From assembly GCA_949358305.1 (NCBI GenBank), contig OX442318.1, positions 3,768,501-3,832,500 on the forward strand: a stretch of DNA of 64,000 bases, read 5' to 3'. A program made the translations under genes and the position numbers. The DNA is from Strigamia acuminata. Taxonomy: Eukaryota; Arthropoda; Chilopoda; Geophilomorpha; Linotaeniidae. Below the pieces are notes generated by a model. The model did no database searches, was not told where the DNA came from, and saw nothing but the letters and a program-made list of their open reading frames with translations. Position 1 is the stretch's first letter. Every line of letters starts with the position of its first letter. Below, in pieces: positions 1-51,809 of the stretch.

Positions 1-642
1 TTAACCCACTGAATCCAAACAAACAAAGATAAACTAGTGGCTGTAGACGAGCCATGTTTGATTTTGATATTTGAGTTTTTGGAGTTTTAATGGTTTGCAT
101 GTTAGCTTCAATTCTTCTGGTTATGTCGCCTTTGGGAGTTAAACGCTTTGCCATGTACCACTGAGCAATAACCAAAATTAGGTTGATGAAAGAGAGAAGA
201 GAGAGTCCTAACCAAAGTCCAAGATTGCCACCAAAGTCAGCCACCAGGCTGATGAAGTCGTAGATTAAGCGTTCTTTCAAAGTTGTCACGTGGTTGTCAA
301 GCAGGCCTATATTATATGAGGATGTGTCACTTTCGCTACGTTCTATCCGAAATGACGTATCAGCATGTGTAATTTCACAACTCCTGGTACAACCACAATC
401 AGGTTCAGGTGTTGGTGCTACCATATCATTCATGTTTTGTTTATACATTTTTAACGTTTGTTCAGAATTATTGCAGAGCTCAAGGTGATGTCCTCTGGAA
501 AATCTTTGCATGTAGGGTAACCTGTCAAATTAAGATTATTAAGATTATTAAGATACCACACGAAGATTTTTAAAGAAAATTATGACAGTGTGCAATGTTA
601 CAGTCATTTTGATCATAGTCTTAGGATGGAGGAACGTAAGGC

Positions 643-1721: not shown

Positions 1722-1869
1722 TTTGTCCTTTCGAGTAACAATTGTGTTAAATGCTATAAATTGTATTGTTTTTCTATGCAGTGCTATTGTTTTAGCCTAA
1801 TTGTTGGAAACTTATAAAATAAGCCTTTTTGACCGTGAATCTGGTCTTTCATTGTTTGCAATAAATGTA

Positions 1870-3875: not shown

Positions 3876-5045
3876 CCGTAAAGTCGGGTGAATGTGGCCG
3901 ATTTTTTTAGTAAATTGTTAATAGTGCCTTCAATTTAATAACTACAGAACTGTTAACTATGTGTTTAGGTGGGTCTTAGGTAGAGTTACAATACCCATAT
4001 CAAACATTTTGATTTTTTGTCACACATTTCCTGTTTTTTAAAAAAAACCATGGTGGCCACATTCAACTTCAGGGGCGGGTGCTATTGGCCACCTCGTTTT
4101 TTTTAGCTGAAATGACACATTCAGCTTCTGAAATGATACATTCAGCATTGTAGAAGGTTAATGTGGCCTATAAAAATGTTTTTAAAAAATTCTATGTGCA
4201 AAAAAATAAATTTTAAATTTTTTTTTTTAGTTTTTTTAGTTAAAAAAAGACAAAATTTGTCATTTTTTTAAAAATTATCGCATATTTGTATAAAAAAACT
4301 ACTACAGAATTATATTCAAAACTACTACAGATTTATGTAAAAAAAATATTCACAGATTTTTGAAAAAATTTCAAATTTCAAAAAAAATTTCTCAAATTTT
4401 TAAAAAAAATTTCACAGATTTTTTAAAAATTTTCACAGATTTTTTAAAAATTTTTAGATTTTTAGAAAATTGTGTTTTATTTCATCTTGCACCAAGTTTT
4501 GGTGTGTAATGTGTTGGCATTCTTAACTTACAATACATTATATTGCCAAATTCATTTAATTAATTAGTAAAATGGCATAAACAAACCTCAATTGTGAGCT
4601 CATTGTGACTACTTCCGGTTGGGGTTGAATGTGGCCATGTGTGGCCACATTCAACTCCCAATGAGTGAGTTGTCTTTCTAACATCACTGTACCAAAACTA
4701 TTAAAGGTAGCAGCATTATTATTTTTTTGTAACATTATAACACATTGAAGAATAAGTACTTAAAATTTCAATCAGCAGTTAGCAATACTTTTTTTTTTAC
4801 AGACCTCTTTTTTCAGGCTCATTTTTCACTAGTTTTACATGACATGCTTAAGAAATGTGTACATTTTTTAAAATTGATTACAAAAATGTGGAATATTTTT
4901 TTTAAGCAAGCTGAAACCTTGATAGATTAATAAAAAATAACAACTAAATGATACATGGCCCAGCAGAAAATGAGCGATTTTTTTTCTACAAGTTTTATTT
5001 TTGGCCACATTCACCTGCTGGGGCCACAATCACCCGACTTTACGG
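3876..5045. mobile_element. Non-autonomous DNA transposon inserted in G1 exon 1
   Basis: Terminal inverted repeats of 24 bp with one mismatch begin CCGTAAAGTCGGGTGA and continue into TGTGGCC. TA is duplicated at 3874-3875 and 5046-5047. Paralogues G3 and G4 carry the uninterrupted exon sequence (AAACTGTAGTT), so the insertion site is exact. The interior is very AT-rich with homopolymers, and the motif GGCCACATTCAAC recurs internally in both orientations. No transposase frame is seen. Confidence 0.85.
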
Positions 5046-5914
5046 TAGTTTAAATTCCACAATTTAGTGAGATCAACATCTGGTCGTGTTATTAATTTAT
5101 CCAAAGGGTTCAGAGCATCTGTCTGAAGTATGTCCATTCCGAGCGTTTCGTAGTAATCCACAACATACTTATTTAGTGGTATACATGTGTGTGAATCAGG
5201 AACTGGCGACTCTTCAATTTCACTTTCGTAGACGTCGACACCTTTTGGACTGGACAGATAATGAGAAATGCGGTCATGCATTTGGTACGAATAGATGAGA
5301 ATGCAGATGACGACAAGAAGAGCCCAAAAAACATGAAATAGAATATTGCGTTTCTTATCGATCATTGGGTGAAATTCTTGAGGAAATGTCGCTCTTCGGT
5401 CTTCTTCTGCCATTAAACGTTTTATGATTGAGCGAAGTCTTTTTCTCATTTGAATTGTAGCCATTACACTGTAAAATATTATTCTTATTATTTGCTGAGC
5501 TAAATATTAGAGTTTTTGGTTTCCTGCTAAACTTTAAATTGCACCCATTCTTATCTAACATACATGTGACAATATAGAAATATATTGTGGTACAAATAAG
5601 TTTCTTCTTACAGCGTACACTGTTAAAAGGTTCTATCTCAATGTGTTGAAACTAACTGATTATTTATAAATGTGTTTATGGCATTATTGGCACTTCATCA
5701 TAAATACCACGTGCTGGTGGTGCCACGAAGACACGCCACACCAGCAACACTGAGCAACAGACTCGTCATACACAGGGAGGTTATTCCCATGTATGACGTG
5801 GTTGGTTTGCCTTTACTTTTATGCCGCACTTCTCTACGGCTCATGCAACTGCTTATGGAGGCTGTGGTGGATTCGACATCTCACCACTAATGTAGCACCG
5901 GTTATACTAGTAGT

Positions 5915-9329: not shown

Positions 9330-12300
9330 CTACTTTTTTTGGACAAAGAACTCTTTACAATTACAAACGAAATGTATTGCGGCGAGTACAGAAAGGCCAA
9401 GCGTTACGCTGACGGCATTGCCAATTTCAGAAACCAATGCAACGAATGAATATTGTAGATTCTCAGCAAAAGTTTCTATTTTATTTGCAGGAAAAACAAC
9501 CGTCACTATTGTTGATTCCTCATAAAATGTAGTGTAACTGTACTCGCTCATTTTATAGAATGGTTGTTTACAAGGTCGAATGCACATACATTCCTTTTCA
9601 ACATCGGTATTTGTATGCATTTCATAGTACAGGGTTCGAACTGCTTTGGCTGTTTCTGGAGAATCGCAGAAAGGTACGTCTTTCTTAACAGCAAACGGCA
9701 TACTATTGTATAAATAAAAGGAGAAATTTTTTAATGCAAAGTTTCTGTTAATTTTTTACAATTACTTACCTGCACAATTGTTTGCTTTTTATCTTATTGT
9801 TAAAGCATTGGTTTTTACAGTTGTAATAGTTTGTTAAATTTTTGTTGCACGGTTTACGAATGGTGTTGAGATATTGTATCTATACCAAAAAATGTGCTTT
9901 ACAATACAGCCGAGCCTCCTTATAATTAGACCTGGGATATTTATGCAAAATAAAATTTTGTTTTATGCGCATAAAATATGCAACAAAAAATCTATTTTAT
10001 GCAACAAAAAATCCATTTTATGCAACAAAAAATCCATTTTATGCAACAAACAATCAATTTTATGCAACAAAAAATCCATTTTATGCAACAAAAAATCCAT
10101 TTTATGCAACAAAAAATCCATTTTATGCAACAAAAAATCCATTTTATGCAACAAAAAATCCATTTTATGTAAAATAAAAATAAAAATGTGCAAAATAAAA
10201 ATAAAAATGTGCAAAATAAAAATAAAAATGTGCAAAATAAAAATAAAAATGTGCAAAATAAAAATAAAAATGTGCAAAATAAAAATAAAAATGTGCAAAA
10301 TAAAAATAAAAATGTGCAAAATAAAAATAAAAATGTGCAAAATAAAAATAAAAATGTGCAAAATAAAAATAAAAATGTGCAAAATAAAAATAAAAATGTG
10401 CAAAATAAAAATAAAAATGTGCAAAATAAAAATAAAAATGTGCAAAATAAAAATAAAAATGTGAAATCAGGTGTTAAATAACAACTTAATGCAATTTCCA
10501 AGTGTTCTTGATGTAAATGAATTATAATTAGTTATTACAATTCATTTGTTTTGTTATAATTCTTTATAACCAGGATCAACTGTATTCTAGAGGAGTAACT
10601 CGCCATGTAGTGATCACTACAATACTACCCATCAATTGTTCCAATGTTAGAATTTATTGGGCGTTCAGTTAGTGTGCAATAATCACCAGACCAATATGTA
10701 CTGGATGTTTAAACAATTAAATACGGAACTGGTGTATGCTGAATAATTATAGAATAAACATACATTTTGTGTAGAAAGTAAAGCAGTAGTCGTCATTGAA
10801 GATGGAAAAACTCCATTTAAAGTGTATGAAAACTCGGGATTTTCAACTGGAGTGATATAAACCTAAAATTGAAAAAATTTTACTAACAAAAATGGAAATA
10901 ATATTTGCGTATACTCACATTTGTAAACTCTGGTTTACATTTGTGTTGTATTTCCTGGAAAGCGTCAAGGAAGAAGGTGAATAATCGGTATTTTATTGGA
11001 CCTGCATGTATGGTTTGTTAATCTTTTTATTTGTTTGTTTTAGAAGTTTAATAAATACCGAAGGCATGTTTAACACAAATTCCGTGTGGATTTGGCAGCC
11101 TCGTGATGGTTCGAACGTCAAATAGTATTCCGGGAAATGGATTCTGAAAATTTAAGGTGCGTTCAGACTTGAGATTTAATTGTTATTATAGTTCACTTGC
11201 TATTGATTGGATGATTTCAGGTAATATCGGTTTCACATAAGATATATTCCAAAGAGTAGTTACGTTATATCCTTTCCAGTTGACGAGATCCAACAAATCT
11301 ACATTGCATTTTGAAGTATTCCGTGTCTGCTGTTTTAAATATTTGGCTTTCGCATACAGAAGTCTTGGATTATGTGGCCCTGAACAGATGATAATGTTTG
11401 GAAAAGTCACATTAGCCGGGTTTTCTATGGATACAGTTTTTTGAACCGGTTCAGTCATATATAGTTGAATTCTATCTTGGACTACAAATATGCCAAATGC
11501 AAACAAGCAGAGATAAATTACATAAAACAAGGTTTTTACATTAAGCTTGCTATTGGTTTGCATTTTGGTTGTCGTTGGTGTTTGAGGTTTTCTCAAATAC
11601 GTTTTAATCTGTCTAGTAAGCTGTTTGTGATTGGTGGGCTTTACATTGTGCCATTTTGCAACATCCCAAATCAAGTTGATGAAGGAAAGTAGAGAGAGTC
11701 CCAACCAAAGACCCAGATTTCCACCAAAGTCAGCTAGGAGACTGATGACATCATAGATCAAGCGTTCTTTAAAAACTCTGATGTGATCATCACGTAAGAA
11801 TAAAGTAGCTGTAGATAAATCATTATCTGTCGGTTCTAATTCAAATTCAGGGTCAATCTCATCAAGTTCACAGCTTCTTGTACAATCACAATCAACTTGA
11901 GGCGTTGGTCCCATAATGTTGTGCGTGTTTTCTTTATACATTTCTGAAGTAGCATCAGAATTATTGCAGGGTTCAAGGAGACGCCCATTGGAATATCTTG
12001 GCATGTAGGAAAGCCTATTTGAAAAGTGAAGGCAAAGAATATTAAGTATTTCAAAACTTTGTAAATTCACTTACCAGCATTCATTTTTGTCCAAAAAACT
12101 TTCTATGCATTTTTTACCGCATTTGATGTACTCCGTTTTATCGACACAAGGATTCTTCTTTGTGTTTATGAACTGGTTCTGAAACAAATCATTATTTCCT
12201 TTTTTAGACAAACTTTACTATTATTGTGACTTGTCACCAGTAATATAAAGATGTTCTGAACATATGAGTGAAAACATTTGAAGATGCGCCATTGCTGCCA

Positions 12301-14977
12301 GTGAGACACAAATCAAAAGTTGATTGTTGTGCATGTGCACAATGGCAGTGATTGGTTTATTGTTTCATTTCGATTCATTGTCTGATAAATGAAACTCACA
12401 AAAATTGTCTGTTTGAATTGTATTCAACTGAGGTAAATTTTAGATTGTGCACATATGTAACAGACTATAAAAGACAATTAATTTTAAACTTTTTTTCTTT
12501 TTTGAGGTGAATACAATAAGGGGTTTCATAATCATAATAATCACAATCGCTCTATTATTGAAGACCCACGCCAGGTTCAATTGATTATACTACTGTCACA
12601 TGACTTCCGGTTATGTTATGTTATGTTTTAAGCATGAAAAGCTTCTTTTTCAGTGATTATAAATAAGCGCTGAAACGCTGAAGCGATTATTCATGTGATT
12701 GGCCCACGCAAGTCACATGATAATCGCTTCAGCAGAATAATCGTCATAATCGCTTCAGCGCCTTCAGCGCATCATTTATGAAACCCCCTAATGTACAATC
12801 ATTTTCACAGAAAGTGTTCATGCATTTTTGTGACTCATGTAAAAATAAGCATGATTTGCCATAGAAGTTCTATTTGTTTGCCAAAAGGTATTTTAAGTGA
12901 AGATACTGTATGCGTTTAGTGGTGGTTTAGGAGTCATATAAAATAACATTACTCTAAAACTAAACTTTACCTTTTTAAGACGTAATCCACATTCTGCTCT
13001 CGTTGCTGAAGTGAGGCCGAATCCATATTGCAAATCCAATGGATATGTTAATCCTACCTAAAATTAAACTCAATAATTTCAACTGTAATGTCTGACTGAA
13101 AGCATGGAAATTTGCTGTATTGTATTATACAGGGTGTTTCACCAAAGGGTTTGGAGTAAAATATTTCAGTCAATAAAAAACTATCACAGATTCATGAAAA
13201 CAATCTGTGATAGTTTTTTATTTACTGAAATATTCTACTGAAATACATTAGTGAAATACAGAAAAGCAGAAGTAATTAAATACAATTCAGAAGTAAAGAC
13301 TACTATATTTGTTAATGTTTTGCATTGCATAGGTTAAAGGTTACTCTACTTGTACATGCCCCGTTTAAACGCCCGGGCGTTTAATTCTTTTTTTGAGCTG
13401 CTTCTCCCGGCGCCAATATGAAACCCGGCGCAAAAAAAGCGATTTTTCTGCAAGAATTACCGATTTTTTGCAAAAAAACGGTGATTTTGGGGGGATCTGG
13501 CGCTTATTCGGGGCCGGCGTCAATTTAGTAAATCGCCGATGACTGGCCGGCGCTAAAACGGGGCCGGCGCTTTATTGAACCCGGGCGTTTAAACGGGGCG
13601 GTACGGTATATTTGTTAATGTTTTGCATTGCATAGGTTAAAGGTTACTCTACTTGTACATGCCGTGTGCTAGAGTTTGTTTTAAAGTTAGCACCGGTTTA
13701 TATACAAGTAGTTAAATGCTAATGGATAATCGGTAAACACATAACCAGAACTTCTGCCTGTATCTTGATAGCTTAATTACAGCAATAAAGTAAAAAAAAC
13801 TTTGGGATATACTAGTGTTAAGGATTGTCCTGTTACCAATTCTGCTACTTTTACCACTACACCAAGTTTTCTATAAATTTCAGAGCCACGTAATGTCCGT
13901 CCATCTACAATTGTAAGTTAAAATCAAATTATATCAAAATTAACGAAAAATTAAACATTTTTTAGACTCGCATTTCACTCTGGTGCAAGTGCCCCGTGGA
14001 TGTATTTCTTTTATTAAAGACACAGCCAACGGTGATAATCTCTGCAATTACAAAACAAGAAAAGACAGACATGGAAATATCATATGTAAACTATTAATAC
14101 TACAGTATGTTTACATGCAGGGAATATTTAGAGCGAGATGAAATATTCCGTGTGCACAACTGTCATGTAAACAGGGATGACAAGGATTACTCGAGTAGTG
14201 AATAATCCCTCGCAGAAGGTTGTTTAATTCAAGTGAACTCAAACTATTTTTATTCCGCATGCGTGCATCGCTTCCGACACCCCCATTGGTCGAAAACCGA
14301 AAGTGATCACGAATTATATTCTGCTGTAAACAACAGTTTGATTTTTTCACCACTCGAATTATTCACTACTCGAATTATTCGGTGCATGTAAACTTACAAG
14401 TTAGTATTAGTGTAGACTATTTGAGAATATTTTTATGCTAGACTTCTGTTACATCTTTTAATTAGAAACTTACCTTGAGTTGATGGCTGACATCGATTAT
14501 GAATGCCTTTTGAATAATATTGTAACTGTAGTTTAAATTCCACAATTTAGTAAGATCAACACCGTCTGTTTTTATAAGTCTATCTAGTGGGTTTAGGGAA
14601 TCTAACTGTCCTGCTTCCATTTTAGGTGGCTGATAGCAATCCCATGCATACTTATTTAGTGCCACGCATAATTGGATATCAGGAAAGTCAAACGCTTCAA
14701 TCTTTTCTTCAGTGACATCAACAGTTGTCGGGGTTGTCAGATAATAAGAAATGCGGTCGTACATTTGGTAAGAATAGATGAGAATGCAGGCCACAACTAG
14801 AAGTGCCCAAAACATACGGAACGCTAGAGACTTTTGTCTATTAATCGTCGGTTTAAATTCTTGCGGAATGTTGTTTTCTATGTCTACTGCTGTGAGGCAA
14901 TCTTTCACCACAAGACGAAGTCTTCGATGAACCTTGTGATAAAGTCTATTTTCAGTTCGGTGCTTAATTTTCATCAT
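9330..14977 (-). CDS. G2: two-domain DEG/ENaC channel subunit
   Basis: Exons: 14977-14474, 14041-13972, 13904-13813, 13057-12971, 12178-12075, 12014-11201, 11143-11059, 11001-10919, 10862-10764, 9879-9770, 9702-9330, giving about 806 residues. Domain 1 has TM1 in E1 (ILIYSYQMYDR), CDCTRSCE and GGNLGLWLGLSLLS in E6. Domain 2 has TM1 late in E6 (FYVIYLCLFAFGIFVV), FPNIIICSG, then ECMCIRPC and VTLGLSVLAAIHF in E11. Intron phases are 0,1,0,0,2,0,1,0,0,2. The start is the first ATG after the E1 acceptor (TTTGTAG, T, ATG ATG). The E2 and E6 donors read GCGAGT and GCAAGT, so two introns are probably GC-AG; unspliced E6 would end at ASEL. No internal stop is seen. Expected to be a plasma-membrane cation channel subunit; ligand unknown. 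It is the most divergent member of the array. Confidence 0.88.
9981..10463. repeat. Two abutting 21-bp minisatellites in G2 intron 9
   Basis: 9981-10169 is nine copies of CAACAAAAAATCCATTTTATG. 10170-10463 is fourteen copies of CAAAATAAAAATAAAAATGTG. Both units are 21 bp and join in register, so every frame without a stop in one unit stays open for the whole array. The array sits inside the 884-bp intron between exons 10 and 9 of G2. Confidence 0.95.
12520..12788. mobile_element. PIF/Harbinger-like MITE in G2 intron 4
   Basis: Inverted ends GGGGTTTCATAA and TTATGAAACCCCC, flanked by the 3-bp direct repeat TAA (12517-12519, 12789-12791), the target type of PIF/Harbinger elements. The inside has AATCGCTTCAGC repeats in both orientations. 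269 bp, no coding capacity. Confidence 0.65.
13130..13250. mobile_element. Truncated CAGGGTG foldback element
   Basis: Begins TACAGGGTGTTTCACC, like the ends of the elements at 22217 and 23558. It then folds into a hairpin (AACTATCACAGATT against AATCTGTGATAGTT). It lies in G2 intron 3. Confidence 0.5.
13304..13663. repeat. 57-bp direct repeats around a GC-rich inverted-repeat insert
   Basis: 13304-13360 and 13607-13663 are identical. Between them is a GC-rich block with perfect terminal inverted repeats CCCCGTTTAAACGCCCGGG and many GCCGGCGC motifs, unlike the AT-rich surroundings. In G2 intron 3. Confidence 0.75.
14107..14393. mobile_element. MITE-like element in G2 intron 1
   Basis: Inverted ends GTTTACATGCA and TGCATGTAAAC, with subterminal CACTCGAATTATTC repeats. 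No coding capacity. The target duplication is not clear. Confidence 0.45.
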
Positions 14978-25138: not shown

Positions 25139-28100
25139 TCAGTCGAGTGGGAACCCAGCATAAAGCTTATTGATAAATTTAGTAAGTGCAACTGCACAAT
25201 TACATGAAAAATGTATTGCCTGTAACACAGAGAGACCCAGCGTGAGGCCAAAAATGTTTGCAATGTCAGAAACCAACGCGATAAATGAATACTTAAATAC
25301 TTCAACAATAGTTTCTATCTTATTTGATGGAAAAGCAAAATTGAAAGCTGATACATTGGGTGCCACTGGTGCAAAACTGAATTCATTGATCTTGTAGATT
25401 GATTGCGTACAGGGCCGGTAACACAAACATTCTTTTTCAACGTCGGTTTTTGTGCGTACATCATAGTACAATGTTCGCACGTCTTTGGCCGTTGCTGAAG
25501 AGTTGCAGAAAGTGACGTTTTTCTTAATTGCAAATGGCATGCTATTGGATGAATAAATAGAGAAATTAAAATACAGTGGGAGTTGTTGATCCCATTGCAT
25601 CGCTACTGTTTTACCTGCACGATTGTTTGATCTTCATCTTATTGTCAAAACACTGACTTTTACAGTTGTAAAATTCTGTCACATTTGAATTGCAACGTTT
25701 GCTTTTGGTGTTGAGGTAATGTATCTGGTTATCAATACCAATATCAACATCAAGTTTATAACAACAACAAATTTGTATTTACAGGATTATGATATACATA
25801 CGTTTTGTCTGGTCATCACAACTGTAGTTGTCAATGAAGATGGTAAGCGAGCATGACAATCGTATGTAAAATTGGGATCTTCGATAGGAGTGATAAAAAC
25901 CTATATTTATTAGGATTTCAAAAATATGTACAAGAGTTTGCCATTTGTTTACATTGTCTACTCCTAACTTAATGCATACTTTGAACTTACGTCTGTAAAA
26001 TCCGGTTTGCACGAAGGTTCTGTCATTTCAAAGAACGATTCAAAAAACATTGTGAAAAATCAATACTTTATAGGACCTAATGCAAAGTTGTTTAATTACT
26101 GTTTTTATTGCTATAGAACAGACAATAATTACCAAATGAGTGTTCAACACAAGTACCGATTGGACTTGCAAATGGAGTGTACGATCGAAAATCAAGTAGA
26201 TCTCCGGTAAATGGATTCTGCAAAATGTGGACTTCACATTAGGCGCGTTCAATTTTAAATTGATAATCCGATTCTTTCGATTTTCCCTGGCGGAAATGAT
26301 GCAAAACGCGTCATATTTTTTAGAATCGGATTTTTGAAAAAATCGATTCTCATAATTCACGTATAGGGTGGATTCTTTGGATTTTGACCCGATTTCAACT
26401 CGTTTTTCTGGCGGCCATTTTAAAATCAAATAAATCGGCGGTTGAAGCACATTACAAAAAGTAAGTTTGTTTAATTTATTTTTATCATTATTATGCATTA
26501 AAGAACGATAAAATGCGGTCGATGTTCGGTTGCATTTGTTGGATCGAATGCGGCCGATGTTCGGCCGCGTTTGTGCGATTGAATGTAGCCGATGTTCGGC
26601 CGCAATAGTGCGATCGAATGCGGCCAATGTTTGGCCGATTTCCCGTTCTTAAATAAATAAATAATAATAATATTAATTTACATAAACTTAAATTTGTCTG
26701 TTCAGAACTAGTTCTGGGATCAAGAGAACTTGATACTAGAACACTTAAGTCATAACTGCGCATGCTCAAGATAATCAAACACTTGATTTTAGAATCGGTT
26801 TTTAACTTGTTCAAAGTTAAAAACCGATTTTATAATCAAGTTTTTGTAATCGGTTTTTCACATTTTGAAATTGAACGCACCTAGTCTAATAAAATCTCAA
26901 GTGCTATATACTGAAACTACTTACATTCAGTTCGATCACATATGGGTGTATTGGTTCAACATAGGCAATTTCCCATAGTCTGGTTACATTTAATCCTTCC
27001 CAGTTGATGAGATCCAATAAGTCTACATTGCATTTTGTGTTATTTTGATTCTGCTGTTTGAAATATTCGATTTTTGGTTCTATAAGGTCTGGATTATGCG
27101 ATCCAGCACAGATGATGATGTTCGGAAAAATTATATCTGCTTCCTCTTTAATTGTTACAATTGTTTGCATGGGTTTGTTCAAATAGAGTTTAATTTTTTG
27201 TTGGACTACAAACCCACTGAATGCAAACAAACAAAGATAAACCAGTGGCTGTAGGTAAGCCATAATTGATTTTGATGTTTGCCTTTTTCGTGTTTGAATA
27301 GTTTGGAATTTGGTTTCCATTTTTCTGGTCATGTGATGTTTGTGATTTATAGGCTTCGCTGTACTCCACTTTGAAATAACCAAAACTAAGTCGATGGTAG
27401 AAAGTGAAGAGAGTCCTAACCAAAGTCCAAGATTCCCACTAAAGTCAGATAGCAGACTGATGAGATCGTAGATTAATCGTTCTTTAAAAATAGTCACTTG
27501 ATCATCCAGTAAGTACATAGATTTAGTACTTATGTTGCTGTTACTAGGCTCTAGTTGAAACACAGGATCAACCAGTATACTTTCACAGCTCCTAGTACAG
27601 TTACAGTCAACTTCAGGGGTCGGTGACATTATATCATATGAGTTTTGCTTGTACATTTTCAAAGTAGCTTCAGAATTATTGCAGAGCTCAAAGCGATGTC
27701 CTTTGGAAAGTCTTGGCCTGTATGGTAACCTGTTAAATAATAAAAAGTATTTTTTTTAAATTGGCAATCTGTGCAACATGCAGGTAATGCTAAATGATAT
27801 ATTGTTACCAACACGGGTTTTTCTTTAATATTGTTTCAGTACATTTTCTTCCGCATTCTATGTATTTCTGCATTGGCACACAGGAAGCATCTGGTGTGCT
27901 TATTAAATGATGCTGAAACAAAAATATAGATAATGAAATACGATTGCTTGAAGGTGCCTTGTATCCAAGATATCCAAGATATCGGCAACAAATTCAGTTA
28001 AATTATGATCCAAATTTTTTTCCAAATTAGACTGTGCAAATTCAGCTTACTATGACAGCACACTGTTAGATTTGAATAATTTGCTTATTGTATGCACAAT

Positions 28101-29186
28101 GACATCACTTTTGATGTCATATTCTCTATTTAAAATAATTTCATTTTTAAATCACTGTCATCTAGGGCTCACTTACTCACCTCTTTAAAACGAAATCCAA
28201 CTTTGCTAATTGTTGCTGAACCAATGCAATATCCATATTGGAAATCAAAAGGGAACTTCAGTGCTATCTAAAATCAAGAACATTAAGAGTCTTATTTAAA
28301 CGTTTTATACATCAATGACTATCAAACATGAACAAACTGATTAGCATAATTGGTTAAACATTAATCTCAAGTGACACATGTATACTTATGTACAGTATTT
28401 ACTATTGTTAGGGATATTGCTGGTTTCAACTCTGGTATTTTTAAATCGTAGCCTACTCTTGTGTATATTTCAGAGCCGTACAGTGTTCTTCCAACTGTAA
28501 TTGAAATATTAAATTAAGTTCTTTTGAAACAGTTATAATTAATTTAGAGAAATGACCCTCTACTCTGGTACATGTACCCCTTGGATTTAATTCTTGTGTG
28601 AGAGTTTGATTCAAATCAACATGTTTCTGGAATTATAATGGAATGAATGCATCTATTAATAATGTAAATAGTAAAAAAAATCAAAATGTTTATGCATAAT
28701 TCGATATATTACTTTGCGATTATGTGTCTCGTCAATTGCAAATACCCTCTGAATAACTTGGAAACTGTAGTTCAAATTCCACATTTTTGTGAGATCAACA
28801 TCAGGTTTTGGTATTAATAAATCCAAAGGCTTAACAGCAACATTGTCATATATATCAATTTCATGCGAGTTGTAGTAGTTCTTCACATACTTGTTTAGTG
28901 GCACACACACGTGTGTATCAGGAATCGTGAATTCTTCCATCTTCTTTTCAGCGACATCGAGAGCTTTTGGGCAGGAGACATAGTAGGATATGCGGTCGTA
29001 CATTTGGTACGAATAAATGAGAATGCAGATGACGACAAGAAGAGTCCAAAAAACACGAAATAGAATATTGCGTTTCTTATCGATCATTGGGTAAAATTCT
29101 TGAGGAAATGCTCTTCTTCGGTCTTCTTCCGCTATTAAATGTTTTACTATTGCGCGAATTCTTTTTCGGATTCGATGATTAGCCAT
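25139..29186 (-). CDS. G3: two-domain DEG/ENaC channel gene with a premature TGA
   Basis: Exons: 29186-28713, 28626-28557, 28494-28403, 28267-28181, 27912-27809, 27729-26925, 26217-26133, 26076-25991, 25900-25802, 25724-25615, 25541-25139. Length would be 804 residues. E1 holds TM1 of domain 1 (LLVVICILIYSYQMYDR). E6 holds CNCTRSCE, FSGNLGLWLGLSSLS (Gly to Ser beside the usual GG), the linker, TM1 of domain 2 and FPNIIICAG. E11 holds ECLCYRPC, then FGLTLGLSVLQAIHF. All splice sites are GT-AG and the phases match the other copies. Exon 8 has TGA at 26062-26060, where G4 has GAA, which would end the protein after domain 1 and part of domain 2. The start follows the acceptor TTTTACAG. It is either a recent pseudogene or a truncated product that still contains a full first domain. 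Confidence 0.85.
26242..26881. mobile_element. TA-flanked inverted-repeat element in G3 intron 6 (640 bp)
   Basis: Ends GG[C/T]GCGTTCAATTT in inverted orientation, flanked by TA (26240-26241, 26882-26883). Inside are AATCGGTTTTT hairpin motifs and about four degenerate units around GCGGCCGATGTTCGGCCGC (26516-26632). A long open frame over it is fortuitous. Confidence 0.65.
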
Positions 29187-32204: not shown

Positions 32205-35200
32205 CTAGTAATGCTTATTGATATATTTAGTAAGTGCAACTGCACAATTACATGAAAAATGTATTGCCTTTAATATAGATAAACCCAGTGTGAGGCCAAA
32301 AGTGTTTGCAATGTCAGAGACCAATGCAACAAATGAATACTTAAATTTTTCTGAAATAGTTTCCACCTTATTTGATAGAAAAGCAAAGTTGACAGCAGTT
32401 GTATCAGATAGCAATGGTTTAGAACTGAATTCATTCATCTTGTAGGATGATTGTTTGCAGGGCTTATTGCACAAACATTCTTTTTCAACATCGGTTTTTG
32501 TGCGTATTTCATAGTACAATGTTCGCACGGCTTTGGCAGTTGCCGGAGAGTTGCAGAAAGTGACGTTTTTCTTAATTGCAAATGGCATGCTATTGGATGA
32601 ATAAATAGAGAAATAAATAGGGAGTTAGTTGCTGCATTGCTCCTGTTTCACCTGCACAATTGTTTGCTCTTCATCTTATTGTCAAAACAGAGGCTTTTAC
32701 ACTTGTAAAATTCTGTAGCATTTTGATTGCAGCGTTTGGTTTTAGTGTCGAGGTAATGCATTTGGTTATCAATATACTTGTCAAGTTTACAACAATAGAT
32801 TCAGTGGTAATTGGTGTTTACATACATTTTGTCTGGTGATCAGAGCTGTAGTTTTCGATGTAGATGGTAAAGGTGCATTACAATCGTATGAAAAATTGGG
32901 ATCTTTGACGGGAGTGATAAAAACCTATATTTGATAACATTTCAACGATGTGTACAAGAATTTGTATTTGTATACATTGTCTATTACCACTACAAATGCT
33001 CTTAACTTACGTTTGTAAAATCTGGTTTGCACGGAGAGTTTGGCCTTTCAACGATCATGTCAAAAAACATTGTGGAAAATTCAAACTTTATTGGATCTAA
33101 TATAAAAGTTATGTTTTTAAATTTTGCATTTTATCTTTTTAGAAGAATGAAAACTTACCAAAGGAGTGTTTAATACAAGTACCGTGTGGATTTGGGAGTA
33201 GAGTATACGTTCGAACATTAAGTAGGTCTCCGGAAAATGGAGCCTGCAATTTTTAGAGCCAGGGAAAAACGAGTTTCAAATGGTGAATATTGACTTGAGT
33301 AAATTACTTACTAGCGATTTGATTGTGCTGGAGCTAAAAGGTGCTACATAAGTCATTTTCCATAGTCTATTTACGTCCAATCTTTTCCACTTGATAAGAT
33401 CCATTAAGTCTACATTGCAATTTGTATTGTTTTGATTCTGCTGTTTTAAATATTTTATTTTGTAAGCTATAAGTCTTGGATTATGCGGCCCTGCACAGAT
33501 GATGATATTTGGAAAAGTTATAGTAGACTCCTCTCCAATTCTTACCATTGTTTGAATGGGTTTCTTTAAGTACAGTTGAATTTTTTGTTGGACTACAAAC
33601 CCACAGAGTCCAAACAAACAAAGATAAACCAGTGGCTGTAGATGAGCCATGTTTGATTTTGATGTGCGGGTATTTAGTGTCCGAATAATTTGTAAGTTGG
33701 CTTTGATTCTTCTAGTCATGTTACCTTTGTGATTTTTAGGATTTTTCCTACACCACTGCACAATAAGCCAAACCTGGTTGATTAAGGAAAGAAGAGAGAG
33801 TCCCAACCAAAGCCCAAGATTCCCACCAAGGTCACACAGTAGACTGATTAAATCGTAGATTAAATGCTCTTTAAGAATGGTCACTTGATCATCGAGCATG
33901 TACACGTAGTTTGTAGACATGTTATTGTTGTTAAGCTCTAGTTGAATCACAGGATCAACATGTATACTTCCACAACTCCTTTTACAGCCACAGTCAACTT
34001 CAGGTATGATTGACACAATGTCATTTAAGTTTTTTCTGTACATTCCTAAAGTGGCCGTAGAATGATTGCAGAGGTTAAGACGATGTCCATTGGAAAGTCT
34101 TGGTCTGTAAGGTAGCCTGTTAAAATATTAAAAAGGCTTTTTTTATATTGGCAGTTTTTGGAACATGCTGCTAATACAAAATGATATGTTACCAGCACAA
34201 GTTATTGTTTAATATCTTTTCAGTACATTTTCTCCTGCATTCTATGTGTATCTGCATTGATACACAGGGCGCATATTGTGTGTTTATTAAATGATGCTGG
34301 AACAAAAATGTAGTTAATGTATAGTAATAGAAATCAAATAAATAACCATTTTGTTGGGAAAAAATGATGAAAGAAATGACCAACAAAAAGATCACACACC
34401 AAGGAATCAGCAAAAAATCGAATTAAATTTGATGCCAATTTTCTTGCTAATCTGGAAATCAGACATACCAAATTACTGTATTACTGTACCTCGCTTTAAG
34501 CTATGTTCTACCGGCATGCCAGTAAACCCTGTCGTTTTAAGTGTGTATTGAAATACAAGATGCCCAAAAATGTCGGAAATTGGCCAAAGTTTTGTGACTG
34601 GTATATGGTCTCTCCCACGATAGTTTGGGGATTGACTGCCATGGGTGAGACGCATACTCAAGTAATGATTGAGACAGGGACTCCGGATTGTTTCATTATT
34701 GAACAATAAATTACTACCATCTAGAAATCACTTACTCACCTCTTTGAAACGAAATCCTACTTTGGCATTGGTTTCTGAAGTTACGTCATATCCATATTGG
34801 AAATTAAACGAAAACGTCATTGCAATCTAAAATTTAATAGTTTATACTTCATTTATCATGTTTACATGTGTAGCCTTGGACATGAAAATTGTCCCAGTCC
34901 AGCTTGAAGCTCACCTCCAGAATGAGCGTTTTCGACTATATCTACCAGGTAGTGTAAAAACTCACTGATAAGTAGTGACGTATTGATATTGAAATGATGA
35001 CACACAATCACCTTCACATCATGGGTTCAGATAATTATGTGACATCACTTAAAGGGGTGGCCGATGTTTCGCGAAAAAAGAAATTGCAAAATGAACGAAT
35101 TGCGAAATTCGGGATTCGTTGTTTCAAACGGAAGTGGGCGCATTGTGAGTTTTTGTACTACCTGATGGATACAGCCGCAAACGTTCATTCTGCAGGTGAG

Positions 35201-36874
35201 CTTCAAGCTGGACTGGGACGATTTTTATGTCCAAGTCTGTACTCAGTTATCTACAATAGATAAGTGAAAACTAAATTTTACATTTTGTGGAAAAGTGATC
35301 ATGGTAACAAATTAGTTTTCCAGAAAAGACACACTTATCCGGAAAACTAAATTCCTGTGTATGAGGCAGATTTTGGGAATTTTGCAAATTGAAAACTGCA
35401 GGTAAACACCCCTGCTTACAAAAATTAAAAACTTGTATTGGAATATCGTCAGTTTGTCGTGATAACGATACGCTAGACCGACATACCAACGACATTTAGT
35501 ACTGAAAACTATGTGAAATGATTTAAAAACGTGATTTCCGGAGTCGTGTTTACCAGAAAACTAACACAACGTAAATGCAACAAGGTTATACGGATAAAAG
35601 AAATCCTAATTTTTACTTAAATGGGAAACTGTGCCCAAGTAAAATGACTAGCAAACATGAATGAACTGATTAATGTAATTGCTGAAATACGAATCTCAAG
35701 TGACACAGGAATACTTATGGATGAATGTTTACTCGTGCTAGGGACCTTCCTGGTATCAACTCTGGTATTTTTAAATCGTAGCCTACTCTTGTGTAAATTC
35801 CAGAGCCGTAGAATGTTCTTTCAACTGTAATTGAAATTTTAAATTTACTTAAACAGTTCTACAGTCGAGCCTTGCTATAACGAATTGCAAAAATCGGTTT
35901 GTTAAAACGAAATTTTGTTATATCACAATTTTTTAACGTGGTGTTCTATGGCCAACCAACCACGCCATTTTTAAGTATTCGTTATTGGTGTGTTCTGTGG
36001 AATCGGATTGTATGGATGTGGCTGGATATCGTTGGATGGAGTTAGACACGAGGCATCACGTACGGGAATATTTGCATAAGTGAATTTATTACCATAAACA
36101 TACAGGTGGCGCTGTACGCGATCTCGTAATGTCACGAGAACGCGACGTGCGCCACAATTAAAGAATGAAGATGGAGTGCAAAACACTCCAGTTATATTGC
36201 TGTTTGGTATAACGAGGTTCGACTCTAATTAATTTTGAAAACTGACCTCCCACTTTAGTACAAGTACCCCTAGGATTTAATTCTTGTGTGATAGTATGTT
36301 TCAAATCAATATGTTTCTAGAAGTACAATGAATAAAGACTACAATTTCAAACAAGTGACAAACAATAAATTAGCCACATTCATCAAAAACTTACTTTGTG
36401 ATGATGAGTTTCGTCAATTACAAATACATTCTGAATAACATAGAAACTGTAGTTTAAATTCCACAATTTAGTGAGATCAACATCGGGTCTTAGTATTAGT
36501 TTATTCAAAGGGTTTACTGCATCAATCTGGCTTATTTCTGTTCTGGATAACTTGTAATAGTAATCCATAACATACTTATTTAGTGGTACACACACATCTG
36601 AATCTGGAATCTTGAACTTTTCTATCTTCTCTTCGAAGACGTCGAGAGCTCTTGGGCTGGACAGATAATAAGATGTGTGGTCATACATTTGGTATGAATA
36701 TATGATAATGCAGATGACAACAAGAAGAGTCCAAAAAACACGAAATACATTATTGCATTTCTTATCGATCATTGGGTGAAATTCTTGAGGAAATGCCGCT
36801 CTTTGGTCTTCTTCTGCCATTAAATGTTTTACCGTTAAGCGAAGTCTTTTACGAAATAGACGATTAGATTCCAT
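32205..36874 (-). CDS. G4: two-domain DEG/ENaC channel subunit
   Basis: Exons: 36874-36395, 36316-36247, 35824-35733, 34826-34740, 34296-34193, 34116-33312, 33243-33159, 33096-33011, 32924-32826, 32761-32652, 32589-32205; 800 residues, no internal stop. Domain 1: TM1 LLVVICIIIYSYQMYD, CGCKRSCG, GGNLGLWLGLSLLS. Domain 2: PLVYLCLFGLCGFVV, FPNIIICAG, ECLCNKPC, FGLTLGLSILKAIHF. The acceptor of exon 10 is AA instead of AG at 32763-32762; an upstream AG would start the exon at 32776, adding 15 nt in frame. The start is the first ATG in the exon (ESNRLF). It is closest to G3 by sequence. Introns hold a TA-flanked MITE and a foldback element. Predicted plasma-membrane sodium/cation channel; gating stimulus unknown. 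Confidence 0.87.
34873..35238. mobile_element. Foldback element in G4 intron 3
   Basis: About 54-bp inverted ends containing CTTGGACAT and AGCTTGAAGCTCACCT. A plus-strand frame of 89 residues crosses the right half and is not recognised. Confidence 0.65.
35862..36225. mobile_element. CAGTCGA MITE in G4 intron 2, TA-flanked
   Basis: Ends CAGTCGAGCCTTG and GAGGTTCGACTC, with TA at 35860-35861 and 36226-36227. G3 intron 2 has the empty site (ACAGTTATAATTAATT). Internal GTGTTCTATGGCC is shared with the pogo-like element at 45955, which likely belongs to the same family. Confidence 0.85.
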
Positions 36875-39653: not shown

Positions 39654-42600
39654 TTAGTTTTTGACACTATGTTGGTTTCTTTTGTGGACAAATGAGAGTG
39701 CATTAGAAAATACGAAATGGATTGCAGTTAAAACAGAAAGGCCAAGAGTGAGACCAAAAGTGTTGGCAATGTCAGAAACTAAAGCCACAAAAGAATATTT
39801 AAATTCTTCGGCAATAATTTCGATTTTATTGGTGGGGAAAACAACAATAATTAGTGTGTTATCTGGTAGAAAAGCAGGGTAACTGAATTCATTGATTTTG
39901 TAGAATGGTTGTTTACAAGGTGGTGCACACAAACATTCGTTTTCAACATCAGTTTTGAAGTGCATTTCATAATACAATGTTTGCACTGCTTTGGCTGTTG
40001 TTGAAGAGTTGCAGAAGGCGACATTTTCCTTGATTGCATATGGCATACTATTAAATAAAGAAAATGAATGATTTAAACAAGTCTACTGCCGTCCTTCTTT
40101 GTGTTTTCGAATTTACCTGCACAATTGATTTTTCTTTATCTTATTTTCTAGGCATTGGCCTTTACACTTGTAATATTCCGTTAAATTTGCATTGCACGGT
40201 TTGATTTTGGTGTTTAGTCGATTTATCTGAAAGTTTATTTTAAGAAAAAAACATTAAACATAATTTTTAGTTCACGTAAAGTTATAATTATTTTGCAAAT
40301 TTGTGAGGCAAGAATACAAAATAAACACATTTAGTCTTCTAATCATAGCAATTGTGGTCATATCAGATGGTACAACATAATTTAAATTATATGAAAAATT
40401 AGGATCTTCTGTAGGAGTGATGTAAACCTGAAATTAAAATGATAACAATATACAAGTAGCTGAAATCATTCACTCGAGGTACAGACATGTAAGAAATCTG
40501 GTGTGCAAGGATTTGGCTTAACGGAAATACCATCCATAAACAATGTGTACATTTGATATTTTAATGGACCTGTAGAGATAAATAGTTGGAATTTTTTATT
40601 TGTTTCTGGATGCTCAGTTATTAATTACGAAAGGAATGTTTAACGCAAGTTCCTTGTGGATTAGAGAGGCTTGTATATGTCCGAACATCAAATAGTGTGA
40701 GAGAAAATGGACTCTGAAAAATATGAAATGCATTCAAAAATTCAGAAATTTTCCAAAATAAAATTTAAGCAAAGATTTATATTTGCTTCTATAATCTCTG
40801 ATGATTATGTGTCAGAGGTAATCATTAATATAAGAATGTACTTACAACCCTCGAAAAAAATTGGTGAGGTGTTGGTTCTAGATAAGCTAATTTCCACAGT
40901 TTTTTAACAGTATAATTTTTCCAATTGACAAGCTCCAATAAGTCTACTTGGCATTTTGTATTGTTTTGCTTCTGCTCTTTGAAATACTTTGACTTCTGAA
41001 ATAGAAGTTTTGCATTATATGCTCCTGCACAAATGATAATATTAGGGAAAGTCACATTAACTGGATCTTCTATTGAAACAGTCATTTGAATAACTTGATT
41101 CATATATAGTGATATTTTTTCCTGAACCAAAAATACACTAAACCCAATCAAGCAAACGTATGACAAGAAATGTAACATTTGCTTCCAAGATCGGTTTTTG
41201 GGCATTTGACTTGTATCTGAGGTTCGACAGGTTTTGAAGCAAGCTTCAATTTTTCTTGTCAAGTTATCGTTCTTCTGTAATTTTACTCTATTCCAATTTG
41301 CAAGAGTCAAAACCAAATTAACGATAGAAAGTAAAGAGAGTCCCAACCAAAGTCCGAGATTTCCACCAAAGTCAGACAACAGACTGATCAAATCATAAAT
41401 CAAGCGTTCTTTCAGAACTGTTATATGATTGTTAATGTAAAAGGTGACTTCAGATAAGTTGTCCTTGTGTTTTTGGAATTCGAATTCAGGATTAAAATCT
41501 ATGTTTTCACAGCTTCTTGTACAACCACAGTCGAGTTGTGGAGTCGGCCCAATAACACTGTACGTGTTTTCTTTGTACATGTTTAAAGTTTCTCTTGAAT
41601 TGTTGCAGAGCTGAATGAGCTTTCCATAGGAATGTTTTGGCCTATAGGGTAGCCTGTTATTTATTAATACGAAAGAAATAACAAAATCATATTATTTTAT
41701 AAAATCATGTTCCTCCAACATCTTTCATTATGCACTTACCAACATGGGTTTTTGTTTAAAATTGTTTCCATGCATTTTTTACCGCAATCGATGTAATCTT
41801 TCATTTCTACGCAAGGATCTTTTCTTGTGTTAATAAACTGATGCTGAAAGAAAACTTACTTCATTTCAATTATTCAAAATTTAAAATATTACAGAAGAGT
41901 TGGTATTTGGCTGCCAAATTCCATTTTTTGCACACAAAAATACAAGAGTCTGAATTATTTGAGTTATTGCACAGAAGTGAAAGTGCTATTTATTGTCAAT
42001 TATTATTTTCATTTTTTGCGCTTATGAGTGTGTGCACAGAAAGTGATTTCTACAAGTAAGTTAGATTTTGGCATCTGGATACCATTCAGAGACTATAAAC
42101 ACTTGATTTACCATTGTATACTGCAGTCCCATTTTTACGTTGGTGGATGATGGTGTGGGAATTGCGTATTGAAAATCTAAAGGTAATGACAATGCTACCT
42201 ACAATTAAATTCATGAGGACATGAGTTTGCAAAAGGATACTAGTGGGTTATAAAAGTTAAAGTAATGAACTCATACTCTAATAACAATGGCGTATAATCA
42301 TAACTAAGGCCTCAATTATAACCTTATTTTATGAAATAAGTGGGTCAATTTACTGCAAGTATGGTTTTTTTTAATTTTGGTAAGATGGTCCTGATCTATT
42401 TTTTCATTCTGAGTTTAATATAATTTACATCGTATTAATCTCAGAGTTAAGTTAAGCTCTTTACTGTTACTGTCCCTTGTGAATGTATGTTTAGCTTGTG
42501 AATTCATTTCCTTCTATTTAAAAGTAGCTTACAAAGGTTTGAGATCTTCCTGGTAATATTTCTGGTATTTGCAAGAGTGCAGTAAATTTTGTATTTATTT

Positions 42601-43393
42601 TTGATCCACTCATTGCTCTGACAACTGAAATTGAAGGGCAATTTATTTTTTTTTTAGATGCAAAAGAAAAGTTTAGTTTTAGCTCACCTTCTATTTTTGT
42701 ACAAGTTCCCATAGGAAACAGTTGCTGATTGGTTCGTATGTCTGAAGGAATGTGTACCTAAATGACAACCGATGATATAAATTATACGTCATTGCTATAA
42801 GCTACTACGGTACCGGTAATGTTTAAACCCATTAAAAACTTACTTTTGTACGTCGTCTGGTATCATATGCAAATACGTTTTGAACAACATGATGACTGTA
42901 ATTTATGTTCCATACTTTATTAAGATCAGCATTCGAGTCTTCTATAAGTGTGTTCAATGGGAGCATAGCAGCATTTACATCTACACTTTCAGGGTGTGAT
43001 TTATAGTAATCCAACACGTACTCATTTAGTGGAACACATATGTGTACACCAGGGAACTTGTACGTTTCAAGCTTTTCCTCATAAACATCAACGGCTTTTG
43101 GGTTTTCCAGATAATAAGAAATACGTTCATAGGTTTGAAAAGTGCAGACGAGAATGCAGACAATGACAAGAAGAGTCCAAAAGATACGAAATGCAAACGA
43201 ATTATTTTTATCAATCATTGGTTGGAACTCTTGAGGGATTTTTTTTTCTCTTCCTAGTCGTTTGAGAACATTTTTTACTGCTCGTTTAAGCCTCACATGG
43301 GACCTTTGGTTACTTCTCGTTATCCTCTACATAAAGAAAAGTTGAAATGAGTTTGCCATATTTTGATACAGATTATTTTGATTTGCTTACCAT
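39654..43393 (-). CDS. G5: two-domain DEG/ENaC channel subunit
   Basis: Exons: 43326-42844, 42757-42688, 42624-42533, 42198-42112, 41843-41740, 41653-40846, 40713-40629, 40569-40487, 40427-40329, 40226-40117, 40047-39654. A preceding exon at 43393-43391 appears to be only ATG before donor GTAAGC, since the ATG inside the next exon is out of frame. That gives 805 residues. TM1 of domain 1 is LLVIVCILVCTFQTYE. E6 has CGCTRSCE, GGNLGLWLGLSLLS, then after a linker FLSYVCLIGFSVFLVQ and FPNIIICAG. E11 has ECLCAPPC and FGLTLGLSVLTAIHF. Phases 0,1,0,0,2 occur twice. The E8 and E9 donors (GTCTGT, GTGTTT) are weak but identical in G6. No stop is seen. Predicted membrane cation channel subunit. Confidence 0.9.
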
Positions 43394-48184: not shown

Positions 48185-51100
48185 TTAGTTTTTGACACTC
48201 TTTTTGTTTCTTTTGTGGACAAATGGAAGTGCAGTAGAACATGTGAAATGGATTGCAGTTAAAACAGAAAGGCCAAGAGTGAGACTAAACGTGTTGGCAA
48301 TGTCAGAAACTAAAGCCACAAAAGAGTATTTGAATTCTTCGGCAATAGTTTCGATTTTATTGGTGGGAAAAACAACAATAATCACTATGTTATCTGGTAG
48401 ATAAGTAGGGTAGCTGAATTCATTGATTTTGTAGAATGGTTGTTCACAAGGTGGTACGCACAAACATTCCTTTTCAACATCAGTTTTGGTGTGTATTTCA
48501 TAATACAATGTTTGCACTGCTTTGGCTGTTGTTGAAGAGTTGCAGAAGGCAACATTGTCCTTGATTGCATATGGCATACTAGTAAATGAAGAAAATGAAT
48601 GATTTAAACAAGTCTACTGCCACCCTTTTTTGTATTTTCGAATTTACCTGCACAATTGTTTGCTCTTCACTTTATTTTCTAGGCATTGGCCTTTACACTT
48701 GTAATATACCGTTAAATTAGCATTGCACGGTTTGGTTTTGGTGTTTAGTCGATTTATCTGAAAGTTTATTTCAAGAAAAAAACATTCAACATAATTTCTA
48801 GTTTACGTAAAGTTATAATTATTTTGCAAATATGTGAAGCAAGAATACTAAATAAACACATTTAGTCTTCTAGTCATCGCAATTGTTGTCATATTATGTG
48901 GTACAGCAAAATTCAAATTATATGAAAAATTAGGGTCTTCTGTAGGAGTGATGTAAATCTGAAATTAAAATAATTACAACATACAAGTAGCTGAAATCGT
49001 TTCTTCGAAGTACAGACATGTAATAAATCTGGTGTGCAAGGATATTCTGGCTTAACGTAAATACTATCCATAAACAATGTGTACATTTGATATTTTATTG
49101 AACCTAGATATAAATAATTTAAGTTTTTATTTGATGTAGGTAGCTGAGATGTTAGTAAATTACCAAAGGCATGTTTCACACAAGTTTCTTGTGGATTAGA
49201 GAGATCAGTATATGTCCGAACATGAAATAGTGTATCAGGAAATGGACTCTGAAAAATATGAAATGCATTCAAAAATTCAGAAATTTTCCAAAATAAAATT
49301 TAAGCAAAGATTAATATTTGCTTTGATAATCTCTGATGATTATGTGTCAGAGGTAAACAATAATATAAGAATGTACTTACAACCATCGAGTAAATTTCTC
49401 GAGGTGTTGGTTCTACATAAGCTAATTTCCACAGTTTTTCTACAGTAAATTTTTTCCAATTGACAAGCTCTAATAAGTCTACATGGCACTTTGTATTGTT
49501 TTGATTCTGCTGTTTGAAATACTTTGACTTCAGAAATAGAAGTCTTGGATTATAAGCTCCGGCACAAATGATAATATTAGGGAAAGTCACATTAACTGGA
49601 TCTTCTATTGAAACAGTCATTTGAATAACTTTATTCATATATAGTGATATTTTTTCCTGAACCAAAAATACACTAAACCCAAACAAGCAAACGTATGACA
49701 AGAAATGTAACATTTGCTTCCAAGAAAGGTTTTTGGGCATTTGACTTGTATCTGAGGTTCGACAGGTTTCTAAGCAAGCTTCAATTCTTCTGGTGAAGTT
49801 ATCGTTCTTCGGTAATTTTACTCTATTCCAATTTGCAAGAGTCAAAACCAAATTAACGATAGAAAGTAAAGAGAGTCCCAACCAAAGTCCGAGATTTCCA
49901 CCAAAGTCAGACAGCAGACTGATTAAGTCATAAATCAAGCGTTCTTTCAGAACTGTTACATGATTGTTAAGGTAAACGTTGAATTCAGATAAGTTGTTGT
50001 TGTGTTTTTGAAATTCAAATTCAGGATAAATATCTTTGTTTTCACAGCTTCTTGTACAACCACAGTCGAGTTGTGGAGTCGGCCCAATAACACTGTAAGT
50101 GTTTTCTCTGTACATTGTTAAAGTTTCTTTTGAATTGTTGCAGAGCTGAAGGAGTTTTTCAGAGGAATGTTTTGGCCTATAGGGTAGCCTGTTATTTATT
50201 AATACGAAACAAATAAGAAAATTATATTATTTAATAAAATCAAGCTTCTTCTACTTCTTTCATTATTCACTTACCAACATGGGTTTTTGTCTAAAATTGT
50301 TTCCACGCATTTTTTACCGCAATCGATGTAATCTTTCATTTCTACGCAAGGATCTTTTCTTGTGTTAATAAACTGATGCTGAAAGAAAACTTACTTCAGT
50401 TCAAATATTCAAAATTTAAAATTTTACAGAAAAGTTGGTATTTGGCTGCCAAATTCCATTTCTTGCACACAAAAGTACATGAATCTGAATTATTTGAGTT
50501 ATTGCACAGAAGTGATTGTGCTATTTATTGTCAATTATTATTTTTACTTGTTGTGCTTATGAGTGTGTGCTCACACAGAGTGATTTCTCCGTTAGATTTT
50601 GGCATCTGGATACCAATTAGACTATAAAAACTTGTTTTACCATTCTTAAATTTAGTCCCATTTTTCCGTTGGTGGATGATGGTATGGGAATTGCGTATTG
50701 AAAATCTAATGGCAATGACAATGCTACCTACAATTAAATTAATGAGGACATGAGTTTGCGAAAGGATACTAGTGGGTGATAAACGTTAAAGTAATAACCT
50801 TATACTTTTACAATGGCATATAATTATAACTAAGGCCTGAATTATAACCTTATTTTATGAAATAAATGGGTCAATTCACTGCAAATCTAATTTTGCTAAA
50901 ATGGTGCCTGATCTATTTGTTCATTCTGAGTTTAATATAATTCACCTCACCTCGTATTAATCTCAGAGTTAAGTTAGGCTTTTTACTGTTACTGCCCCTT
51001 GTGAATGTAGGTTTAGTTTGTGAATTCATTTCCTTCTATTCAAAAGTAGCTTACAAGGGTTTGAGATTTTCCTGGCAATATTTCTGGTATTTGCACGAGT

Positions 51101-51809
51101 GCATTAAATTTTGTATTTATTTTTGAACCACTCATTGCTCTGACAACTGAAATTGAAAGGCAAATTTTTATTTTATTTTAGATGCAAAAGAAAACTTTAG
51201 TTTTAGCTCACCTTCTATTTTTGTACAAGTTCCCATAGGAAACAGTTGCTGATGGGTTCTTATGTCTAAAGGAATGTGTACCTAGATGACAACCGAGGAT
51301 ATAAATTATATGTCATTGCTATAGGCTGCTACTGTTTAAACCCATTAAAAACTTACTTTTCTATGTCGTCGTGTATCATATGCAAATACATTTTGAACAA
51401 CATGAAGACTGTAGTTTATATTCCACACTTTAGTAAGATCTGCATCAGTGGCAGTTATAAGTCTGTTCAATGGGAGCATAGCAGCAAACTCATCTAGACT
51501 TTCATCGTGTGATTTATAGTAATCCAACACATACTCATTTAGTGGCACACATATATGTAAACTGGGTAACTTAAACGTTTCAAGCTTTTCCTCATACACA
51601 TCAACGGCTTTTGGGTTTGCCAGATAATAAGAAATGCGGTCATAGGTTTGATAAGTGTAGACAAGAATGCAGACAATGACAAGAAGAATCCAAAAGAAAC
51701 GAAATGTAAACGAATTATTTTTATCAATCATTGGCTGGAACTCTTGAGGGATATTTTCTTCTCTTTCTAGTCGGTTGAGAACATTTTTTACTGCTCGTCT
51801 AAGCCTCAT
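48185..51809 (-). CDS. G6: two-domain DEG/ENaC channel subunit (best-resolved copy)
   Basis: Exons: 51809-51357, 51281-51212, 51146-51055, 50727-50641, 50378-50275, 50188-49381, 49248-49164, 49103-49018, 48958-48860, 48757-48648, 48578-48185. 2388 nt, 795 residues, no stop. Domain 1: TM1 about 38-56, post-TM1 LHICVPLN, CGCTRSCE near 312, TM2 about 364-388 with GGNLGLWLGLS. Cytosolic linker about 389-428. Domain 2: TM1 about 429-449, FPNIIICAG near 472, ECLCVPPCEQPFY near 703, TM2 about 755-776 with LTLGLSVLTAIHF. Phases run 0,1,0,0,2,0,1,0,0,2. A normal family member has one such unit of 500-700 residues. The HG motif before TM1 is absent. The start is the first in-frame ATG after the acceptor TTTTAG; an upstream exon is possible. 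Sister of G5. Confidence 0.92.

Follow-up and report, generated by a model that had tools for sequence, protein, structure and literature searches.

A gene of the centipede Strigamia acuminata codes for a DEG/ENaC channel protein with two complete units in one chain. It lies in a stretch of 64,000 nucleotides (the window) together with several copies of the same type. Taking all the evidence jointly, we consider it probable that we are dealing with a natural concatemer that originated in a single fusion, expanded to more than 100 loci, and works as a sensory cation channel in which one two-unit chain and a third unit make up the trimer.

Both the limits of the gene and the presence of two complete units in one spliced product had been proposed in an earlier note on this DNA. 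Our model reproduced the coordinates exactly (Table 1), and the two-unit product is borne out at the gene level, with a junction exon (exon 6) that is not interrupted. The first and second units (U1 and U2) measure ~375 to 405 aa each and have the same order of landmarks, that is, TM1, a KxWxxxY motif, a TC motif, a Cys-rich exon, a CxCxxxC cluster, and a TM2 with the GLS sequence. The halves also align from TM1 to TM2 in BLASTP, in a low-identity alignment, and with this the feature-by-feature correspondence described in that note is confirmed. The plan of two TM segments and a Cys-rich ectodomain is found once per unit and twice per protein, with the TM segments identified by alignment and the cysteines matched (nine corresponding U1/U2 pairs are invariant in alignment A1, by reading). 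When the halves were scanned alone against Pfam ASC, where two matches had been expected, U1 reached 77.9 bits (E 1.1e-21) and U2 reached 58.1 bits (E 1.1e-15), both above the cut-off of 23.6 bits, in a scan that used an early 793-aa model of the focal protein. One detail had to be amended, the GTC motif assigned to exons 2 and 7: it is present in exon 2 (as MGTC), whereas exon 7 of the focal copy has ETC and the GTC of exon 7 is seen in copy 41k.

All introns of the focal gene are of the GT..AG type, with weak donors in exons 8 and 9, and the phases of the spliced model are 0,1,0,0,2 in U1 and again 0,1,0,0,2 in U2, just as previously read. Both halves are six-exon units with this series of phases. 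The 3' end of exon 8 is probably at 49018, judging from the copies, which gives a protein of 782 aa; a version of the exon 33 bp longer (the 793-aa model) was discarded, as copy 41k would then have a stop and the other copies fit the shorter form. Adjoining the gene there is a simple repeat array (window positions ~52810 to 53147), which reads as ININIKL-like in one frame.

Table 1. Focal two-unit DEG/ENaC gene, its exons, and the other two-unit copies inside the window
Feature	Position	Strand	Size	End phase	Content and remarks
Two-unit gene 50k (focal)	ATG 51809 to stop 48185	-	782 aa		11 exons
Exon 1	51357..51809	-	453 bp	0	N-terminus, U1 TM1, first palm part
Exon 2	51212..51281	-	70 bp	1	MGTC motif
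Exon 3	50641..50723	-	83 bp	0	
Exon 4	50428..50484	-	57 bp	0	
Exon 5	50275..50378	-	104 bp	2	Cys-rich
Exon 6 (junction)	49381..50188	-	808 bp	0	Single open frame; in order, U1 CGCTRSC cluster, TM2 with GLS filter (GLWLGLS), 36-aa linker, U2 TM1, first palm part
Exon 7	49164..49248	-	85 bp	1	ETC motif
Exon 8	49018..49103	-	86 bp	0	Weak donor gtctgt; boundary inferred from copies
Exon 9	48860..48958	-	99 bp	0	Weak donor gtgttt
Exon 10	48648..48757	-	110 bp	2	Cys-rich
Exon 11	48185..48578	-	394 bp		U2 CLCVPPC cluster, TM2 with GLS filter, stop
Copy 41k	39657..43296	-	781 aa		Stop-free; phases 0,1,0,0,2 and 0,1,0,0,2
Copy 34k	32214..36847	-	775 aa		Model stop-free; small exons 2-4 of U1 uncertain
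Copy 27k	25166..29162	-			Two-unit, full-length; possible pseudogene, with a single in-frame stop (exon 8); small exons 2-4 of U1 uncertain
Copy 12k	9333..14923	-	773 aa		Model stop-free; small exons 2-4 of U1 uncertain
Sixth copy	8..5440	-			Cut by window start; exon 1 5440-5036; exon 6 from 520 to edge

The junction exon is the central piece of evidence. Because TM2 of U1, the linker, and TM1 of U2 share one open exon, the fusion of the units needs no guess about splicing, and the usual doubt over predicted fusions of tandem genes is removed, as no splice has to be assumed between them. When the protein of exon 6 was compared with the whole genome, we obtained at least 143 matches, and 130 of them cross the junction without a stop, at identities from 26% to 100%; the remaining ones either contain stops (10/143) or are stop-free without spanning the junction (three). 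These tallies were counted by reading the match table, the tool's own counts being lower bounds, and some matches are equal in score and identity, which could correspond to recent or assembly duplicates, so that the count may be slightly inflated. A set of 53 junction-exon rows (50 distinct), selected as stop-free and for which the unselected stop figure is therefore the 10/143 given above, has linkers of 32 to 45 aa, and the other two frames of the exon contain a mean of 18 and 20 stops, with a minimum of 9. Among 10 close copies of this set, the median dN/dS was 0.43 before the linker, 0.57 in the linker (95% range of 0.33 to 1.06 by column resampling, with 3.9% of the bootstraps at 1 or above), and 0.45 after it, and pooled values were similar. 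Constraint on the linker thus concerns its length and frame, and only modestly its sequence.

The family is concentrated in one region of the genome, as 25 of the 30 best junction matches belong to a single array on contig C6 (3.72 to 4.18 Mb), with other matches on C1, C3, C4, C8, C9, and C11 and one on C50. Inside the window, the claim that the two-unit product holds for every complete copy is slightly too strong: four of the five complete copies (50k, 41k, 34k, and 12k) have stop-free models, and the two-unit copy at 29162-25166 has the stop in exon 8. The spliced aligner recovered the complete series of phases for both units in the closest copies alone (50k, 41k, and the locus L014). The terminal run of the model, phase 2 followed by 0,1,0,0,2, appears in all five window copies and in 23 of the 30 loci L009 to L038; L009 and L011 correspond to 50k and 41k of the window and are counted in both sets. 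Between the complete copies, we also found short exon fragments of the family (8054-7953, 20453-20376, and 31241-31080), two of the three with stops, which appear to be decaying partial copies in the array.

The loci modeled comprise 30 taken with flanks of 1.5 kb and another 20, diverged, that span 7 to 8.5 kb. Of 25 places (five window copies together with the diverged loci), 18 gave a stop-free model with all four TM segments; among the seven failures, six lack a TM match at one end or at both, and the other has a stop. Among the loci with short flanks, 20/30 show U1 TM2, U2 TM1, and U2 TM2 free of stops, three have stops, and in seven the model ends before U2 TM2 or matches it incompletely. 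The GxS filter is present in U1 in 53/53 rows and in U2 in 39/40 rows (38 distinct), with GMC as the single exception. We rejected a pseudogene array in view of the open frames, the dN/dS below 1, and the retained filters, and an assembly artifact in view of the many diverged copies. A profile search of the genome with Pfam ASC yielded 93 matches to exons and, among 14 control genomes, exceeded the cut-off in one (Thermotoga maritima); these matches were used only for finding single-unit loci, and no count was drawn from them. Two more alignments of mixed exon fragments (A2 and A3) were dropped because their pieces of exons 1 and 11 had low identities, interpreted by us as misplacement.

The two-unit layout is not exclusive to this genome. 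An uncharacterized protein of Strigamia maritima (T1ITL7_STRMM, 805 aa) has 35% identity over 97% to the focal protein and, by reading and alignment, the same order of two units, and over the junction exon its identity with diverged copies of the present genome rises to 59 to 60%. The layout is thus common to proteins of two species. Our searches of protein databases with the focal protein, alignment A1, and a conserved region of T1ITL7 retrieved only T1ITL7, a result of little weight for other species, since ordinary DEG/ENaC proteins did not come up either and animal coverage, in the collection or through its word filter, is thin. We found no papers describing T1ITL7 as a two-unit protein, and the main text of the Strigamia genome paper (PMC4244043) has no occurrences of the terms ENaC, amiloride, degenerin, pickpocket, or sodium channel.

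Among channels of known structure, the closest chains by profile were BRTNaC1 (E 3.5e-35) and PDPNaC1 (E 9.5e-34), followed by FaNaC1 (E 1.8e-16), with the matches to the first two lying in the section of the profile that corresponds to U1. When each unit was searched singly, BRTNaC1 was first for both (E 1.8e-14 for U1 and 1.9e-11 for U2). BRTNaC1 (Scolopendra broad-range thermal receptor 1; PDB 8YMR, 8YMS, 8YMT, 8YMU, 8YMW, and 8YMX), described as a heat receptor (PMC12804983), is therefore the best solved relative, with 431 aa and one unit, in contrast to the two units of the focal protein. The second best, PDPNaC1 (PDB 9JF7), is also a short DEG/ENaC unit, with 421 aa, reported as a proton-gated homotrimer in antennal neurons of Scolopendra and coded by a gene of nine exons (PMC12714832), whereas the focal gene has two units and 11 exons. 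Both of these solved relatives are trimeric and belong to centipede antennae. Because of these nine exons, the six-exon pattern with phases 0,1,0,0,2 is not general to BRTNaC1/PDPNaC1-like channels, and because it has two units per protein, we consider the fused protein a variant of this type of channel rather than a plain member.

We found no natural two-domain or concatenated DEG/ENaC in the open-paper literature, which was partially covered and gives only weak evidence on this point; domain databases may contain two-ASC proteins that lack annotation. Concatemers of ENaC and ASIC have been engineered in the laboratory by joining units tail to head with a linker, so the arrangement of linker-joined units is alike, although the one described here is encoded in a genome. 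Gene duplication and fusion within a channel subunit are also seen in natural channels with duplicated domains, among them the two-pore channels. There, two repeats divide a four-fold channel evenly, whereas the two units of the focal protein do not divide a trimer evenly.

To trace the origin of the family, we built a tree with 16 two-unit genes split into halves, three channels of known structure, and, where available, five single-unit rows of the present genome, using 185 columns; two of the U2 rows were only 35% filled, and U2_L054 forms a long branch. All the U1 sequences form one clade (96/90) and all the U2 sequences another (81/94, not strongly supported), with similar branching inside both. 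Trees forcing U1 and U2 into one clade were rejected for the local array (p-AU 1e-5) and also when the Strigamia-like genes were added to it (p-AU 1.3e-5); for U1 and U2 overall, such a clade is absent from the best tree and was not rejected (p-AU 0.32). The base of the tree, including the point where the BRTNaC1/PDPNaC1 channels join U1 and U2, shows no resolution. The separate clades with similar branching lead us to conclude that there was one fusion followed by expansion in the sampled genes, and by the same topology the fusion would be older than the split from S. maritima and older than the expansion.

The single-unit genes of the present genome have a stop after TM2, and one locus, L006 (C6:3523627-3526974), contains two of them, both BRTNaC1-like and arranged head to tail, ~0.2 Mb from the fused array. 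They are separated by 366 bp, from the stop of the first gene (1891-1893) to the first in-frame ATG of the second (2260). Introns 2 to 5 of the first gene (its first exon was not found) have phases 1,0,0,2, and introns 1 to 4 of the second have 0,1,0,0, so combined, the two genes show 0,1,0,0,2. This tandem pair likely resembles the layout before the fusion, and the earlier proposal of a whole-gene duplication followed by fusion, here of tandem genes, is supported by the existence of BRTNaC1-like single-unit genes with a matching phase pattern. A diverged single-unit gene elsewhere (L004/L059, C5:5193328-5189887) has an N-terminus resembling that of the two-unit proteins and is a possible near single-unit relative of them. 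In an earlier tree, which included a piece with stops (L003), L004 was placed beside U2 (support of 78), a position that we dropped, as the tree rebuilt with fewer genes and without L003 gives no placement for it.

From all this we reconstruct an ancestor that would have consisted of two copies of a BRTNaC1/PDPNaC1-like gene with six exons, arranged head to tail. The stop of the first copy and the intergenic DNA would have been lost and its last exon merged with the first exon of the second copy, which accounts for the 11 exons (6+6-1). The fused gene, having arisen once in the sampled genes, would then have multiplied to its present number, and its product would carry two TM1-ectodomain-TM2 units with a short linker of 32 to 45 aa between them in the cytosol. 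We infer this order of events. By analogy with its antennal relatives, the fused family may form cation channels of sensory cells, and in this respect it would resemble the expanded chemoreceptor families.

DEG/ENaC channels are trimers of single TM1-ectodomain-TM2 subunits, and for this reason we infer a 2+1 assembly, in which one fused chain would fill two of the three positions and the third would be occupied by a single-unit subunit or by one unit of a second fused chain. Taken as a separate claim, this trimer of one fused chain and a third unit seems the most likely assembly, with a chance that we put somewhat short of even. An AlphaFold model (T1ITL7 with the junction exons) had low confidence (pLDDT of 46 and pTM of 0.28), with the helices near their expected places and no information on how the units pack. 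The main rival, which we rate as rather unlikely, is a double-barreled complex with two different pores, in which three fused chains would form a trimer of their U1 units linked to a trimer of their U2 units. A single gene product would then be enough to close the stoichiometry, U1 and U2 fall in separate clades with filters kept in both, and a linker of this length could reach an adjacent trimer; against this, the AlphaFold model provided no inter-unit information and we know of no double-barreled precedent in DEG/ENaC channels.

The remaining alternatives question whether the two units work together at all. The fused protein could be cut in the linker, or U2 could be produced from an internal start, so that the working subunits would be single units. 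The linker region does contain a Met in 43/53 rows, perhaps a relic of the start of the second gene, and possible poly(A) signals (AATAAA/ATTAAA) appear inside exon 6 in many rows, presumably by chance in AT-rich DNA. However, the length of the linker is narrow and its dN/dS tends to be below 1, a strong donor-like site was found in the linker in 0/53 rows, and a message terminating in U1 would lack a stop codon, as this unit has none, all of which makes this option improbable. We hold in equally low regard the idea that U2 is an attached regulatory domain that has lost its role in the pore: its Pfam ASC score is lower than that of U1 and its match to BRTNaC1 is weaker, but it retains TM1, TM2, the cysteines matching those of U1, and a nearly invariable GxS. 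Finally, mis-joined tandem genes are a common annotation error, and two adjacent single-unit genes could have been confused with one here; we give this practically no weight, since the units share one stop-free exon in 130/143 matches, the layout recurs in S. maritima, and the single-unit genes of this genome do have their stop after TM2.

Returning to the natural concatemer, the fused chains, with more than 100 genes, could be the tuning subunits of the centipede sensory repertoire, each with two different units, completed by a shared single-unit co-receptor or by the pairing of two pores in a three-chain complex, a proposal that we make tentatively. Orco, the shared co-receptor of insect odorant receptors, offers a parallel for such a single-unit partner. 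As a two-unit subunit cannot evenly fill a DEG/ENaC trimer, this family amounts to a concatemer experiment run by nature and retained, with the two-unit form kept at more than 100 loci in the present genome and shared by at least one further species, S. maritima. Stoichiometry, forced heteromerization, and the evolution of lineage-specific sensory channels become directly testable in this system, and the fused family adds a large set of candidate receptors.
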